NCBI RefSeq assembly: GCF_007858435.1 | Contig: NZ_VIGW01000003.1 | Span: 186,001-250,000, forward strand | Source: Tsukamurella asaccharolytica | GTDB lineage: Bacteria; Actinomycetota; Actinomycetes; Mycobacteriales; Mycobacteriaceae | Direction: 5' to 3' | DNA length: 64,000 bases | Shown here: piece after piece, positions 37,969-45,673 of the stretch | Layout of the letters: each line of letters starts with the position of its first letter | Numbering within the stretch: the first letter of the stretch is position 1 | The notes under the pieces: generated by a model | Database searches by the model: none | Told to the model about the DNA's origin: nothing | The model's input: only the letters and a program-made list of their open reading frames with translations | Translations under genes and position numbers: made by a program

Positions 37969-38095
37969 GCTGCCCTCCGTGACAAATGAGTCTATCGGTG
38001 GGAAACTACACCACTGAGTCGTGTGTTGCACACGTGAATGATGATTCGTGCTCGGTGCCACGTCCGGGCACGCCGGGAGCGCGGTCGGTGCTTGC

Positions 38096-39117
38096 CTACG
38101 AGGATGCGGGGAGGGCGATCCCCAGCTCGCGGAACACCGCCCGCGCCCGATCCGGGTAGTCGGTGATCAGACCGTCCGCGCCGTCCCGCAGCAGCGCCCG
38201 CATCGTCGCGGGGTCGTTGACCGTCCACGGGATCACCTGCAGTCCGAGATCGTGCGCGCGCCGGATCAGCTCCGGTGTGGTGAACCGCACGAAGTCCGGT
38301 TCGCCGATGCCGCCGTCCTGCGGGTCGCCCTGCACCGGCGAGACGGCCGTCAGCCCCGGAATCGTCTCCTTCGCGGCCCGCACCCAATCCCCGCCGTAGG
38401 AATCGACGTCGAGCCCGAGCCACGGCGAGGCGCCCGGCTTGCCGGTCTGCAGGAACTGCTCGCCGTTGGTGAGTGCGACCAGCCCACGCCGGGCAGCAGC
38501 GGCCCGATCTCCCGCAGCGCCGTCCAGTCGAAGCTCTGGATCGTGACCTGCCGGGCGAGGCCGGAGCGCGTGATCTCCCCCGCCACCGTCCGCACGAACT
38601 CGCCGCGCGGCGCCGTCTCCGCCGGTGCACCGGCCTCCACCTTGGTCTCGATGTTCATCCGCACCGGCGAGCGACGCTCGCGCACGAGGTCGAAGAGTTC
38701 CCGCAGCTCCGGGATGCGGGCGCCGGCCACCACCCGCTGCGACGGGGCCGCCTTCTCGTACCCGCAGTTCATGGTGCGGATCTGGGCATAGGTCAGGTCG
38801 CGCACGTACTTACCGACGTACGGGTACTGCGGGTCGCCCGGCGTCGCGGGCGCGGTGTCCACGCACTTCTTCGCGTCCACCTTCCGGTCGTGCGTGATCA
38901 CGACCTTCCGGTCCTTCGTCACCTGCGTGTCCAGCTCCAGCGTCGTGACGCCGAGCCGCATCGCCTCGGAGAAGCCCTCCAGTGTGGACTCCGTCTGCAG
39001 GCCGAGCCCGCCCCGGTGCGCCTGCAGGTCGACGGTGCGCGGCGCCGCCCCGACGGGAGCCGCCCCGAGCAGCAGCGCGAGGGTCACGGACGCGATCGAC
39101 AGGCGGCGCAGGTTCAT
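38096..39117 (-). pseudogene. Frameshifted secreted glycerophosphodiester phosphodiesterase
   Basis: The N-terminal frame (start ATG 39117) has a signal peptide, the HRGG and ELDTQ metal/catalytic motifs of GDPD enzymes and a normal domain to about 38483. The C-terminal part (EPDFVRFTTPELI, GLITDYPD) continues in another frame to 38096. One extra C in GGGC-TGG near 38481-38483 would restore one 340-residue frame reading GVGLVALTNGEQ. So there is a single-base deletion, real or a sequencing error. The intact enzyme would hydrolyse glycerophosphodiesters outside the cell. Confidence 0.8.
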
Positions 39118-39215: not shown

Positions 39216-40727
39216 ATGGCGCAGTCAGCCGCGCAGTTGTACGCCGCGTTCACGGACAACGCCGACAGCGACGTCGCGCTCCGCCTGCTCCGCTCCCCCC
39301 ACGCCGTCGCCTACCTGGCGCTGATGGCCGCCCGGCTGGGGACGGGCCCCGTCGACGCGGAGGAGCTGGGGGACGCGCTCACCGTCGACCTGCAGTCCCT
39401 CGCGCACCACTTCACCGAACGCGCCCGGCCCGTGCCCGCAGGTCCGGATGTCCTCGACAGCTGGGTGAAGGCCGGCTACGTCTCGCGAACCCTGGACGAC
39501 ACAGACCGCGAGGTCATCCAGCTCACCCGCGGCGCCACGACGGCCCTCGGCCAGGTGCAGGCCGTGTCGCTGGACCGCAACGTCGCCACCGAGACCGCGC
39601 TGGAGCTGGTCACTGCCCGGCTGTCGGCGGTCGCGGTCACAGTCAGCGCGGACCCCGACGACCACCTCCGCGCCCTCGACGAGCAGATCGCCGAGCTCAC
39701 CCGCCGCCGCGAGGCCCTGCGCGCCGGCCTCGTGCCCGAGTACGACCACGGCAAGGTGGTGGACGACCTCAAGATCGTCAGCTCGCTCGCCGAGCGCATG
39801 CCCGCCGACATCCTCGGCTACGGCGAGAAGCTGCGCGAGCACACGCGCGCCCTGCTCACGCACGGGCTCGACGCCTCCGACTCCAGCGAGGCCGGCCAGG
39901 CCACCGCCTACGCCACGACGCTGCAGCGCCTCTTCGACGGCCACGACGAGCTCGCGAACACCCCCGAGGGCAAGGCCTTCGACGCCTTCTACACCCTCCT
40001 CTCCGACCACCGCCTGCGCCGCCAGCTGGAGACCTCCGTCGCCGCGGTGGTCACCGAGGTCGACCTCCCCGACGACCTGCGCGACTCCCTCACCGGCTTC
40101 CTCGATCGCATGTGGATGCAGGTCCAGCGCGTCGACGAGATCCGCGGGCAGGTGTATCGGCGCATCAACACCTTCGTCAAGGACGGCGACTTCCTGCAGT
40201 ACCAATCGCTGCGGGCCCGCATCACCGAGGCGCAGCGGGCGGCCGTCGACGCCTTCGACGCCGCCTCTCCCGGCCGCGACACCGGCCTCGCCGTCCCCAT
40301 GTCGGCCGTCGACACCAGGTCCGTCGGCGCCCTGCGCTTCCACGACGGCGTCGTCACCCTGCCGCCCGAGGTGCGCGAAACCTCCGGCGAGTTCACCATC
40401 GACCCCGCCCGCCTCGTCGGCCGGGAGGCGATCGACTGGGACGCGCTCGCTGCCGCCGTCAACGAGGCCGTCAGCGCGTCCGACGGCGCGACCCTCACGG
40501 AGGTCCTCGACGCCATCGACGCCCCCCGCGCCGGCGACGTGGTCGGCGTCTGGTCGCTCGGCGCGCGGTACGGCACCGTCGACGAGGAACGGTCCGTCAC
40601 CGTCGTCGCGCACACCACACGCGGCCCCCGCGAGCTGACGGTGCCGCACGTCGCCTTCGCCGCCGCGCTCCCGCCCCTGACCCCCGCCTCGGCCGCGCCC
40701 GAGCCCACCACGTTGTTCGAGGAGTGA
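39216..40727 (+). CDS. jetA: Wadjet/MksF-type kleisin subunit JetA (DUF3375)
   Basis: 503 residues of the DUF3375 family, the kleisin-like subunit (JetA/MksF) of bacterial SMC-like Wadjet complexes that sense and restrict circular plasmids. N-terminal winged-helix-like region (about 1-100), long helical middle (LDEQIAELTRRREALRAGL) and a C-terminal winged-helix part. ATG with GGGAGG upstream. First of three coupled genes jetA-jetB-jetC; no jetD follows. No homologue in this place in M. tuberculosis. Confidence 0.9.
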   Translation: MAQSAAQLYAAFTDNADSDVALRLLRSPHAVAYLALMAARLGTGPVDAEELGDALTVDLQSLAHHFTERARPVPAGPDVLDSWVKAGYVSRTLDDTDREVIQLTRGATTALGQVQAVSLDRNVATETALELVTARLSAVAVTVSADPDDHLRALDEQIAELTRRREALRAGLVPEYDHGKVVDDLKIVSSLAERMPADILGYGEKLREHTRALLTHGLDASDSSEAGQATAYATTLQRLFDGHDELANTPEGKAFDAFYTLLSDHRLRRQLETSVAAVVTEVDLPDDLRDSLTGFLDRMWMQVQRVDEIRGQVYRRINTFVKDGDFLQYQSLRARITEAQRAAVDAFDAASPGRDTGLAVPMSAVDTRSVGALRFHDGVVTLPPEVRETSGEFTIDPARLVGREAIDWDALAAAVNEAVSASDGATLTEVLDAIDAPRAGDVVGVWSLGARYGTVDEERSVTVVAHTTRGPRELTVPHVAFAAALPPLTPASAAPEPTTLFEE

Positions 40728-40729
40728 GA

Positions 40730-41509
40730 TTGGCCGACGAATCGCTGGACATCGCCGACGAGGGCCTGCCCGAGATCGACCTCGCGGACTTCTCCATCGC
40801 CGACGACGAGGCCATCAAGTCCCTGCGCGGCGCCGACACCGCGCCGCGGTTCGACGGCGACACCTCAGCCCTGCCGAACTCGGTCTGCTACGCGCTGCAG
40901 GAGCTGATCGCCGCGCCGCACGTCTCTGCGAAGTCCAAGAACTGGGCGGTGATCGAGGCCGAGGAGACGCTGCTGCGCAGCCGGCTCTCCGAGCTGAACC
41001 TGCTGCTGGAGATCAACCGCGAGACCAAGCACGCCTTCACCCGCCAGGTCAGTGAGAACGACCCGCGGCAGCGCAATCTGCTGCGCGCGCAGAGCCTTTC
41101 GCTCGCCGCGTCGGTGCTGGCGCTGTTCCTCCGGCTCAAGCACCTCTCCAGCCCGGACGAGACGGCGGTCGTGGAGCGCCAGGAGATGATCGACCACCTG
41201 CTGACCTTCCGGCCCGCCCGCGACACCGACGAGGCCGGCTTCGTGAAGAAGGCCGACGCGGCGATCAACCAGTTGGAGACCCGCCGCCTGATCCGCCGGG
41301 TCGGCACGAGCGACCGGTACGCCGTGCACTCGGTGATCGCCTCCCTGCTCACCCCCGAGCAGGTGGACCTGTACACCGCCGCGTACCGCGATCTCGCCAG
41401 CACCGATCAGGACCTGGGCGAGGCGGCCGCCCCCGTCGACGGGGCGGATGAACAGGACGGCGAGGACGGCACCGTCGAGCCCGAGAACGAGACGCAGGAG
41501 CAGCAGTGA
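40730..41509 (+). CDS. jetB: Wadjet/MksE-type subunit JetB (DUF4194)
   Basis: 259 residues. The DUF4194 (JetB/MksE) kite-like subunit with tandem winged helices: core at about 45-225, including LFLRLKHLSSPDETAVVE and the C-terminal wing RLIRRVGTSDRYAVHSVI. N- and C-terminal tails are acidic. TTG at 40730 is favoured by GAGGAG 5 bases upstream; GTG 40724 overlapping the jetA stop is the alternative. It overlaps jetC by GTGA. It would bind the JetA kleisin and bridge the SMC heads. Confidence 0.87.
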   Translation: MADESLDIADEGLPEIDLADFSIADDEAIKSLRGADTAPRFDGDTSALPNSVCYALQELIAAPHVSAKSKNWAVIEAEETLLRSRLSELNLLLEINRETKHAFTRQVSENDPRQRNLLRAQSLSLAASVLALFLRLKHLSSPDETAVVERQEMIDHLLTFRPARDTDEAGFVKKADAAINQLETRRLIRRVGTSDRYAVHSVIASLLTPEQVDLYTAAYRDLASTDQDLGEAAAPVDGADEQDGEDGTVEPENETQEQQ

Positions 41510-44500
41510 CCCGCAAGCATCTCGGCCAGTACCGCCTCACCCGCCTGCAGGTGGTCAACTGGGGCACCTTCGACGGGTACAAGGACTTCCCCATCGACGA
41601 GCGGGGCGTGATCCTCACCGGCCCGTCGGGTTCCGGCAAGTCCTCGCTGATGGACGCGCACTCGGTGGTGCTGCTGCCCACCTATGACCAGTCCTTCAAC
41701 GCCTCCGCGGACATGACGGCGAAGGGTGCCAAGCGCGCGGCCCGCTCGATGGCGGACTACGTGCGCGGCGCGTGGTCGGTCAACGACGACGAGCACCAGC
41801 AGTCCAAGGTGCAGTACCTGCGCGGCGAATCGGCGACGTGGTCGGCCGTCGCGGCGACCTACGACAACGGCGCCGGCAACGTCACGACGGCCGTCGCGGT
41901 GAGGTGGTTCCCCGGTAGCGGCACCGACGGCGCCTCGCTCAAGTCCTGGTACCAGCTCCACTCCGGCGCTTTCGATCTCCTGGACCTGCAGGAGTGGGCC
42001 ACCGCCGGCTTCGACACCCGCGGCTGGCGCTCGCGGCACAGCGGCGTCGAGTCCTTCGACACCCAGGCCGCCTACCAGGACGCGCTGCGCCGCCGGGTCG
42101 GCATCGGCACGTCCAGCGCCGCGCTCGCGCTGCTGGGCAAGGCCAAGGCGATGAAGAACGTCGGCGACCTCGACGCCTTCATCCGCACCTACATGCTCGA
42201 CCGGCCGCAGACCTACGCCCGCGCGGAGCGCCTCGTCGAGAACTTCACCCAGCTCGACGAGGCCTACCGCGCCGCGGCGCGCGCGGAGGCGCAGGAGAAG
42301 GTGCTGCGCCCGATGCCGGAGGCCTACGAGCGCTACCGCTCCGCCACCGTCGGTACGACGCGCGCGGCCGACCTGCTCGGCGCGCCCGTGCGGTCCTACC
42401 TGCGCGGGCACAGGCTGCGGCTGCTGCAGGAACAGATGGACCGGATCGAGGGCGAGCGCGCCGGTATGGACGCGCAGATCGCCCGCTGGGAGGACAGGGC
42501 CGAGGAGCGCAAGATGCGCTACAACGACCTGTTGCACCGCCTGCGGCAGGAGCAGGGCGAGGTCGGCGTGCTCGAGGCCGAGCTCCAGTCCCGCGAGCTG
42601 CAGACCCAGGCCCGCCAGCGCGCCTACGAGCGGTTCGCCGCGGCCGTGGAGAAGCTGGGCGAGCGAGCGCCGGAGTCGGCGGAGGAGTTCGCCGCCCTGC
42701 GGGAACAGGTCCCGGGCATCCGCGACCGCGCAACCGAAGCGGCCGAGGCGCTCGCGGGCCGAGTGCACTCCGCGTACACCGACGAGTCGGACGCCCGCCG
42801 CGCCGTCGAGTCCGTCGACGACGAGCTCTCCGTGCTCGATCGCCGCGCCTCGCTGCTGCCGCCCGCCCTGCTGGACCAGCGCGACGCGATCGCCCGCGCC
42901 ACGGGCGTTCCCGCCGAGGATCTGCCCTACGCCGCGGAGCTCATCGACGTCGAACCCGCGGAACAGGCGACGTGGGCCGGTGCCGCCGAGCGCGTGCTGC
43001 GCCCGCTGGCCACCACGCTGCTGGTCCCCGCCGAGCACCAGCGCGCCGTCGCCGACCACGTCAACGAGACCCGCGTCCAGGGCGTTCTCACCTACCAGGT
43101 GGTCGACGGTGCGGACACCACCCGCCCGGAGCCCGGCTCCCTCGCGACCAAGCTGACCGTGGACGAAAGCTCGCCGGCGGGGCGCTGGCTCGCCGGCGCC
43201 GTCGCGCGGGCGGCGCGGCACATCTGCGTCGACTCCCCCGCCGAGCTGGAGCGCCACGACCAGGCCGTCACCCCGGAGGGCCTGGTCAAGAGCGCGGGCG
43301 GACGGTTCCGCAAGGACGACCGCCGCGCCGTCGCCGACCGCTCGCAGTGGGTGCTCGGCACCAACACCGGCAGCAAGCGCGAGGCGCTGCAGCGCCGCCG
43401 CGAGGAACTGGCCGCGGTGCACGCCAAGGCGGCCGAGGCGTCGGCGACGCTGCGCGACGACCTCGCCGAGCACAAGGCCGTCGCCGACAGCGCCGCCGGC
43501 GTGTTGGGCTACTCCTCGTGGGCCGAACTGGACCACTGGGCGGCCAAGGCCGAGGCCGAGGAGCTGGCCGACCGGATCTCGGACGCCCGCTCCGGCAACG
43601 CCGACCTCGGCGAGCTGGAGCTGCAGGCCGACAACGCCTACGGCGAGCTCGCCGAGGCGCAGACCCGCATCGGCGCGCTCACCGAGACCATGAACCGGGC
43701 CGGCACCGAGTTCGACGATCTGCTGGCCGAGTTCGAGAAGATCGACGGCGAGAGCGCGCCGAAGCTCTCGGAACCCGACGAGGACTTCCTCGCCACCGCG
43801 CTGTGGCACCTGCTCACGGCCGACGAGGCGAAGCCGCGCCGGCTCACGCTCGACACCTTCGGCGAGGTCCGCGCCGACCTCCGCGCGGAGCTGGAACGGC
43901 AGCAGGCCGCGGCGACGGCGGAGCGCGACGCCGCCGAGGCGCGGATCGTGCGCACCGCCGAGCAGTTCCTCCGCGAGTGGCCGGAGGCCTCGACGGAGCT
44001 CTCGGCCGACGTCGCCTCCGCACCGGACTTCGTCGCCGTGCACGAGAACCTCGTCGCGCACGGGCTCGCGGCCGCGACCGAGAAGTTCCGGCGGCTCATC
44101 ACCACCGACGTCAGCCACTCGGTGTCGAACCTGTTCAAGGAGGTCGACGACACGCACCGGGCCATCACCCGCGGCATCGCCGACGTCAACGCGGGCCTGC
44201 GCCGGGTCGAGTTCAACGAGGGCACGTACCTGCAGATCGCCTACGCCGCACGGCCCACGCCGGAGGCGACGGAGTTCGCCAAGCTGGTCGACGAGATGGT
44301 GCGCGACGCCCCCGCGGCGAAGCGCGCCGAGCCGGCGGCGATGGCCGCCCAGTTCAAGCGGATCCGCGGCCTGGTGCTGCGCCTGACGGGCGACGACCCC
44401 GAGTCGCGGCGCTGGACCGAGAACGTCCTCGACGTGCGCACGGGCTACTCCTTCTACGGCAAGGAGAACGCCGTCGGCGCCGAGCCCGACGCCCCCGCGG

Positions 44501-44868
44501 TGGTCACCTACCGCAACACCGCGACGAACTCGGGCGGCGAGCAGGAGAAACTGGTCGCGTTCTGCCTCGCGGCGGCGCTGAGCTTCGCCCTGGGCAGCCA
44601 CGGCATCGACGGATCGAACGAGCCGGCCTTCGCGCCGCTCATGCTCGACGAGGCCTTCAGCAAGTCCGACGAGCGCTTCTCCGCCCAGTCGCTGCGGGCC
44701 TTCGAGCAGTTCGGCTTCCAGCTGATCATCGCCGCCCCGATCCGGATGGTCGGCATCGTCGAGCCCTTCATCGGCCAGGTGATCCTGGTGGACAAGCAGG
44801 TCGGTGCCGACGGTGCCCGCTCGGACGCCAGGTACGCCACCTTCGGCGAGTTGGCACTGGCGCGCTGA
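41506..44868 (+). CDS. jetC: Wadjet/MksB-type SMC ATPase JetC
   Basis: 1120 residues. SMC-like ATPase of the MukB/MksB/JetC group. Walker A GPSGSGKSS at 39-47, a long two-part coiled coil with central hinge (about 230-400 and 640-920), signature NSGGEQEK at 1008-1015 and Walker B LMLDEAF with Asp1048-Glu1049, all intact. ATP-driven loop extrusion by JetABC detects small circular DNA; the cutting subunit JetD is not encoded next to it. The next gene, a PIG-L deacetylase, begins 28 bases downstream. Confidence 0.92.
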   Translation: MTRKHLGQYRLTRLQVVNWGTFDGYKDFPIDERGVILTGPSGSGKSSLMDAHSVVLLPTYDQSFNASADMTAKGAKRAARSMADYVRGAWSVNDDEHQQSKVQYLRGESATWSAVAATYDNGAGNVTTAVAVRWFPGSGTDGASLKSWYQLHSGAFDLLDLQEWATAGFDTRGWRSRHSGVESFDTQAAYQDALRRRVGIGTSSAALALLGKAKAMKNVGDLDAFIRTYMLDRPQTYARAERLVENFTQLDEAYRAAARAEAQEKVLRPMPEAYERYRSATVGTTRAADLLGAPVRSYLRGHRLRLLQEQMDRIEGERAGMDAQIARWEDRAEERKMRYNDLLHRLRQEQGEVGVLEAELQSRELQTQARQRAYERFAAAVEKLGERAPESAEEFAALREQVPGIRDRATEAAEALAGRVHSAYTDESDARRAVESVDDELSVLDRRASLLPPALLDQRDAIARATGVPAEDLPYAAELIDVEPAEQATWAGAAERVLRPLATTLLVPAEHQRAVADHVNETRVQGVLTYQVVDGADTTRPEPGSLATKLTVDESSPAGRWLAGAVARAARHICVDSPAELERHDQAVTPEGLVKSAGGRFRKDDRRAVADRSQWVLGTNTGSKREALQRRREELAAVHAKAAEASATLRDDLAEHKAVADSAAGVLGYSSWAELDHWAAKAEAEELADRISDARSGNADLGELELQADNAYGELAEAQTRIGALTETMNRAGTEFDDLLAEFEKIDGESAPKLSEPDEDFLATALWHLLTADEAKPRRLTLDTFGEVRADLRAELERQQAAATAERDAAEARIVRTAEQFLREWPEASTELSADVASAPDFVAVHENLVAHGLAAATEKFRRLITTDVSHSVSNLFKEVDDTHRAITRGIADVNAGLRRVEFNEGTYLQIAYAARPTPEATEFAKLVDEMVRDAPAAKRAEPAAMAAQFKRIRGLVLRLTGDDPESRRWTENVLDVRTGYSFYGKENAVGAEPDAPAVVTYRNTATNSGGEQEKLVAFCLAAALSFALGSHGIDGSNEPAFAPLMLDEAFSKSDERFSAQSLRAFEQFGFQLIIAAPIRMVGIVEPFIGQVILVDKQVGADGARSDARYATFGELALAR

Positions 44869-44896: not shown

Positions 44897-45673
44897 ATGG
44901 CCACCGTCGTCGCGCTGAACGCACACCCGGACGATGAGTCGATCTTCATGGGCGGCACGCTCGCCACGCTGGCCGCCGCGGGGCATCGGGTGGTGCTGGT
45001 CGTCGCCACCGACGGGATGATGCTCGGCGAGGACGAAGCCGAGCCGCGACAGCGCTTGAACGAGCTCGACTCGGCGGCGGCGGTGCTCGGCGCCACGGAC
45101 GTGCGGTGGCTCGGGTACGCCGACAGCGGCCACGGCGCGGAGCTGTACCCCGATCCTCCCGGTCGCGTGCGCCTCGTTCGTGCCGGAATCGAGGAGCCCG
45201 CGGAGCGACTGGCGGCGATCGTCCAGGAGGTCGGGGCGGACCTGCTCATCGGCTACGACCCCGCGGGTGGCTACGGACACCGCGACCACGTGGCCGTCCA
45301 CGCGATCGCCCGGCGCGCCGCCGAAGCCACCGGCGTCCGATTGGTCGAGGCGACCGTGCCGCGCGAGATCGCGGTCCGAATTCTCGGCGTCACCACCCGG
45401 CTACGACTGACCCGCGATCACGATCTCGCCGCCGCGCAGGCCTGGTTCACTCCGTCCGCGGAGATCACCCACCGCATCGACGTGCACCGATTCGTCGGCA
45501 CCAAGCAGCGCGCCCTCGGCGCACACCGCTCCGAGATCAACGGCCCCGGTCGCGCCGCCCGCCTCATGCGCCTTCTGCGCGCCCTCCCACCCTGGCTCGT
45601 CTCCCCGGTGGTCCGCACCGAGTACTACCTGGAGCCCTCGGGCCCCACCACGCCCGTCGACCGGCTGCTGTGA
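44897..45673 (+). CDS. PIG-L family (LmbE-like) deacetylase
   Basis: 258 residues. Zinc-binding HPDDE motif at 10-14 and a second site H128-x-D130-H131 in GHRDH show the LmbE/MshB fold that deacetylates N-acetylglucosaminyl or related groups. Not MshB itself as far as I can tell. ATG 44897 has no Shine-Dalgarno sequence; TATACA 6 bases upstream might be a weak -10. It is followed in frame, after its stop, by a glycosyltransferase remnant, so the two may once have formed a sugar-modification pair. Confidence 0.85.
   Translation: MATVVALNAHPDDESIFMGGTLATLAAAGHRVVLVVATDGMMLGEDEAEPRQRLNELDSAAAVLGATDVRWLGYADSGHGAELYPDPPGRVRLVRAGIEEPAERLAAIVQEVGADLLIGYDPAGGYGHRDHVAVHAIARRAAEATGVRLVEATVPREIAVRILGVTTRLRLTRDHDLAAAQAWFTPSAEITHRIDVHRFVGTKQRALGAHRSEINGPGRAARLMRLLRALPPWLVSPVVRTEYYLEPSGPTTPVDRLL

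Follow-up and report, generated by a model that had tools for sequence, protein, structure and literature searches.

What does a Wadjet-type JetABC complex do when no gene for the plasmid-cutting subunit, JetD, is found with it? Wadjet and MksBEF are related loop extruders, one serving immunity and the other chromosome upkeep, and the question is how the one becomes the other. It is raised here by a locus in a 64,000-nucleotide stretch of the Tsukamurella asaccharolytica genome (the whole stretch analysed, referred to as the window). We consider it probable that Tsukamurella jetABC encodes a nuclease-free, MksBEF-like condensin for chromosome upkeep and represents an actinobacterial lineage of this kind. 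The features of the locus are as follows (positions in the window):

39216..40727, + strand: jetA, mksF-like kleisin, DUF3375, 503 aa (Pfam PF11855, E 2.2e-96; PADLOC JetA1, 996 bits)
40730..41509, + strand: jetB, mksE-like KITE subunit, DUF4194, 259 aa from a proposed TTG start (Pfam PF13835, E 1.6e-31, scanned from 40817; PADLOC JetB1)
41506..44868, + strand: jetC, mksB-like SMC ATPase, MukB-like, 1120 aa (PADLOC JetC1, 1088 bits; ATPase motifs)
44897..45673, + strand: PIG-L deacetylase-like gene in the jetD slot (Pfam PF02585, E 6.8e-25); a neighbour, not judged to be part of the system

The three jet genes are open frames on one strand and form a single operon (39216-44868), where the proposed TTG start of jetB at 40730 lies 2 bases past the jetA stop and jetC overlaps jetB by 4 bases. 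The Pfam scan of the locus proteins matched the AAA_29 and SbcC_Walker_B domains, and JetC carries the Walker A (GPSGSGKS), signature (SGGEQEKL) and Walker B (LMLDEAFSKSD) motifs. The original prediction, that the DUF3375, DUF4194 and SMC-like ATPase genes are intact and coupled with all ATPase motifs present, is thus borne out by the open frames, Pfam, PADLOC and the motifs alike. JetB also scored just above the cut-off for MksE (PF21980; 28.9 bits, cut-off 27), and NCBIfam gave no model above cut-off for JetA, JetB or JetC. Among solved structures, JetC matches JetC chains over its whole length (E 2.1e-57) and JetA has a distant match to JetA chains in the middle of the protein (E 2e-9); for JetB no solved relative was found by sequence, and its predicted fold (mean pLDDT 43.7) was unusable for a fold search. 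JetA proteins of nine named Tsukamurella loci are 89-92% identical to that of the window.

With its DUF3375, DUF4194 and MukB-like SMC genes in the same order and tightly coupled, the window resembles Wadjet type I/MksBEFG/EptABCD (C. glutamicum, M. smegmatis, E. coli GF4-3), but differs from it in that no JetD/MksG was found in the operon or the genome. The closest characterised relatives, according to the best PADLOC models (JetA1, JetB1 and JetC1) and the solved structures, are nevertheless Wadjet subunits, which would suit an anti-plasmid system in which JetABC either stops plasmids through loop extrusion without help or recruits a host nuclease in trans. We regard such a system as unlikely; in B. 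subtilis, plasmid suppression needs all four Wadjet subunits according to excerpts of PMC10586767.

Searching the six frames of the whole window with a profile of 16 JetD proteins gave no match at E<=1, in agreement with the original prediction that jetD is present neither in nor upstream of the operon. The genome-wide check that had been proposed with JetD models was also run: the draft genome (81 contigs, rated 100% complete) has no match to JetD_C/DUF2220 (PF09983, E<=0.001) or DUF3322 (PF11795, E<=1), while C. glutamicum, used as control, gave matches for both. With two Pfam families lacking a match, a jetD elsewhere in the genome was rejected. DUF3375 was detected in 16 of the 16 Tsukamurella genomes examined (one copy has an internal stop) and JetD_C in none of the 16; together with the selection on jetABC described below, this supports the nuclease-free variant, which had been one of the two branches of the original prediction. 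Presence in every genome is also unlike a patchy defence gene and speaks against the anti-plasmid system. Among 61 loci scanned, the 16-sequence profile was silent in every Tsukamurella, AlkZ-neighbour, g95 and group B locus (these groups are defined below) and matched 11 loci with jetD beside jetC as well as L085-L088. Ten of those 11 had contributed to the profile, the exception being L076, and the independent positive controls are therefore L076 and L086-L088 only.

For a comparison of jetABC loci among relatives, we used a family sample of 101 genomes and a class sample of 296 genomes. In the family sample, DUF3375 was matched in 41 and JetD_C in 15 genomes. There are 39 full-length jetA loci; in 11 of them jetD adjoins jetC, and the other 28 have no jetD in the examined flanks, three Tsukamurella loci being counted through named records. 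Nineteen loci are of the window's kind (group A), six of them from Tsukamurella and 13 from the genera g7, g11, g13, g17 and g19, where JetA is 55-58% identical. Group B comprises six family-sample loci plus L110, which comes from the class sample (genera g9, g30 and g31); its subunits are roughly 24-34% identical and there is no jetD at its loci. The third set, g95, consists of five class-sample genomes from a different family, with JetD far from the locus in two and none in three.

In a tree of JetC, the nuclease-free rows of groups A, B and g95 form one clade (31 rows, SH-aLRT 100), and the same clade was recovered in a second tree to which six plasmid rows had been added (24 rows, bootstrap 100, SH-aLRT 100). 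The rows with JetD, five plasmid-borne JetABCD operons among them, fall outside it. The proposed comparison across relatives thus yields a fully supported clade with no jetD in the examined flanks, apart from the JetD-bearing rows. The first tree holds seven of the 12 Tsukamurella loci (four near copies and L048, with a split jetC, were dropped) and four of the five g95 loci (in L102 an N run breaks jetC); nine further rows, seven near copies and the distant L067 and L068, were dropped from the second. Both trees are midpoint-rooted with some long branches, and are compatible with loss of JetD toward the clade as well as with its gain elsewhere.

Several loci deserve separate mention. Nine plasmid records match JetC, and of the seven inspected five have jetD beside jetC and one does not. 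The latter is a 754 kb Arthrobacter plasmid (NZ_CP012477.1) carrying jetABC with no jetD in the 11.8 kb locus (L125, 2786-8258); its JetC adjoins the nuclease-free clade on a long branch with weak support, i.e. its placement is unsure. A 22 kb record of T. tyrosinosolvens labelled "plasmid 2" (NZ_LR134444.1; L119, 1-22295) has jetA at the record start, a jetC annotated as two pieces, trpAB and the chromosomal jetABC neighbours, and is therefore probably a mislabelled chromosome fragment. In the complete genome of Tsukamurella sp. PLM1 (L048, 10001-15642) jetC is split over two frames and the jetA match ends short. The family loci L067, L068 and L074 also carry jetABC-like genes with no jetD but lie outside the main nuclease-free clade; PF09983 gave no match in their three genomes.

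In the wider clade JetD does occur elsewhere in some group B and g95 genomes, which is a counterpoint to the condensin reading. Three of the six family-sample group B genomes have it (G052, G090 and G099), G052 and G090 as a separate JetABCD operon. In G099 a partial JetD match (L087, about 11104; G099:C11) lies in a stretch without a jetC match, and the jetABC genes (L071) are on a different contig; this match may represent a remnant or a JetD that acts in trans. Such a match, apart from jetABC and with no jetC nearby, would fit the anti-plasmid system, and a nuclease unlike JetD acting in trans could likewise count against a condensin.

The absence of jetD, the split jetC of strain PLM1 and the internal stop in one of the 16 jetA copies might be read as signs of a JetABCD remnant decaying after jetD loss. 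Measured against ten Tsukamurella relatives, the dN/dS ratios are 0.06-0.09 for jetC, 0.07-0.20 for jetB and 0.11-0.20 for jetA (simple Nei-Gojobori estimates). The housekeeping gene acn, also in the window, has 0.10-0.15 (five relatives measured, at lower dS), and PIG-L has 0.14-0.33 (nine relatives measured). Ratios against three sister-genus loci (0.33-0.50) are near saturation with dS 0.67-1.01 and were not used. JetC is under purifying selection and jetABC is maintained. Moreover, all 31 nuclease-free JetC rows keep the ATPase motifs; since the SGGEQEKL and LMLDEAFSKSD patterns fit all of these and none of the 11 JetD-bearing rows (the Walker A pattern fits seven), they are tuned to the nuclease-free clade. 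The low dN/dS, the conserved motifs, the occurrence in all 16 genomes and the extension of the nuclease-free clade to a second family make decay very improbable.

If jetD is missing, what occupies its slot? In the window the PIG-L gene starts 28 bases past jetC and, as had been predicted, does not look like a nuclease: it is deacetylase-like by PF02585. In 8 of 12 Tsukamurella loci PIG-L lies 13-94 bases past jetC, in three it is about 3.8 kb off, and in one it was not in the examined flank. PIG-L was rejected as a replacement effector because it belongs to a deacetylase family, changes faster and keeps no fixed distance to jetC. That no fourth gene stands at a fixed place past jetC in the 12 Tsukamurella loci is a further point against the anti-plasmid system.

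In the sister genera the slot is filled differently. All 13 non-Tsukamurella group A loci, from five genera of the family sample, have a gene of about 360 codons for an AlkZ-like DNA glycosylase after jetC, starting between -74 and +7 bases from the jetC stop (upstream-extended ORFs account for the gaps of -74 and -62). Pfam was run on three of the 13 proteins, and these match the AlkZ-like family at E 4e-77 or lower; the 13 fall in one cluster, whose profile is matched in 13 of 13 genomes at E 1.3e-172 or lower and hits the AlkZ structure 5uuj at E 1.3e-10. They thus match the AlkZ-like (HTH_42) glycosylases, which include AlkZ and E. coli YcaQ, and each keeps the QxQ motif. According to excerpts of PMC9040887, AlkZ-type enzymes share a (Q/H)xQ motif, and removal of complex alkyl adducts has been shown for those tested. 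In addition, sodA is found within about 2.3 kb upstream at all 13 loci and msrA was seen at four.

As a second counterpoint to the condensin reading, the AlkZ-like gene in the slot of five sister genera may point to a repair role. JetABC would then grip or survey DNA where it bears crosslinks or bulky adducts and the glycosylase would unhook them, Tsukamurella having lost its partner or using one of three paralogues. The three full-length AlkZ-like genes found elsewhere in its genome would be in keeping with this, as would the neighbours sodA and msrA in the sister genera, yet we think such a DNA-repair condensin is improbable. The AlkZ-like gene is not in the Tsukamurella locus, and none of the six Tsukamurella genomes of the family sample matched the orthologue at E 1e-90. 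Relocation of the orthologue within the genome was rejected, because two of the paralogues are 23-29% identical and the third has no match at E 1e-5. Furthermore, five g9 genomes (L107, L108, L109, L117 and L118) lack jetABC at the sodA site, where msrA is directly followed by the orthologue, and there is no AlkZ-like gene at the five g95 jetABC loci. The glycosylase and sodA trees fit insertion of jetABC between msrA and alkZ as well as loss in g9, and jetABC may simply have inserted at a sodA-msrA-alkZ site. Since g9 keeps the AlkZ-like gene without jetABC and the gene was not found in Tsukamurella, a working link between jetABC and the glycosylase is hypothetical.

The N-terminus of JetB may point to a partner. 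A motif, [IV]DL[AS][DH]F (IDLADF in the window), precedes the KITE body in all 12 Tsukamurella and all 13 AlkZ-neighbour loci, and was found in none of six group B, five g95, three other and 11 JetD-bearing loci; 14 shuffled N-termini gave 0.0005 matches on average. It therefore marks the branch of the window and not the whole nuclease-free clade. Judged from its sequence, it may serve for docking. Excerpts of PMC10586767 describe how, in JetABCD, JetB contacts JetD through an IFDR motif at its N-terminus; by analogy [IV]DL[AS][DH]F could dock a partner, which would favour the anti-plasmid system. IFDR is absent from the JetB of the window and likewise from the 11 JetD-bearing loci examined; being missing even there it is not diagnostic here, and it was rejected as a marker of JetD dependence in these loci. 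The [IV]DL[AS][DH]F motif also enters a bolder scheme, which we hold to be quite improbable: a glycosylase for DNA adducts would have taken over from the plasmid-cutting subunit, JetABC, patrolling or looping DNA, would pass crosslink or bulky-adduct sites on to the AlkZ-like enzyme, the JetB motif would dock this enzyme at the place of JetD, and Tsukamurella would have retained the motor, its glycosylase being either free-standing or lost.

We return to the nuclease-free condensin as the preferred reading. JetABC is kept under selection without the cutting part and hence probably organises DNA rather than destroying it. Most likely, JetC dimers together with the kleisin JetA and the KITE subunit JetB would bind DNA and extrude loops using ATP, like JetABC of Wadjet, where excerpts of PMC12647877 describe a JetABC dimer that extrudes the plasmid before JetD activation. 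Without JetD the reaction would end in DNA organisation or segregation and not in cleavage. JetABC would act alongside Smc-ScpAB; ScpA was matched in the genome at E 1e-64 and, judged from ScpA alone, this standard condensin is probably present. Its retention in Tsukamurella and related lineages would then reflect a standing cell function and not a mobile defence cassette.

This reading has a precedent in P. aeruginosa MksBEF, which is thought to have lost JetD and contributes to chromosome organisation (excerpts of PMC10586767 and PMC7485682). Like the operon in the window, it combines a kleisin, a KITE subunit and an SMC without a nuclease, and it occurs beside Smc-ScpAB, as is probable for Tsukamurella too. 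The likeness is one of gene content; MksBEF belongs to another phylum, and some sister loci here have an AlkZ-like gene in the slot. The nuclease-bearing MksBEFG of C. glutamicum, in turn, acts on plasmids and does not fold the chromosome according to excerpts of PMC7083940; as this system is actinobacterial, a chromosomal role within the group is not a given.

Nuclease-free MksBEF is already known from Pseudomonas (excerpts of PMC10586767), and the kind is therefore not new. The new leads are the nuclease-free actinobacterial lineage and the AlkZ-like gene in the post-jetC slot of five sister genera. Among the matches listed in a mostly open-access literature, none reports such a lineage by title or abstract opening, and no report of an AlkZ-type gene with a Wadjet or condensin operon was among the matches listed. 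In open-access full text there was no paper naming both AlkZ and Wadjet, nor both Tsukamurella and Wadjet. A nuclease-free clade beside nuclease-bearing relatives in one family provides close pairs for asking what JetABC does without JetD, and also why a DNA glycosylase gene fills the slot in five genera.

Finally, the GDPD gene upstream of the operon (38060-39117, - strand) is split over two frames, as the original prediction of a frameshifted neighbour had it. Seven relatives have GDPD as a single frame of about 343-460 codons, and the split in the window could reflect either an error in the sequence or recent pseudogenisation.
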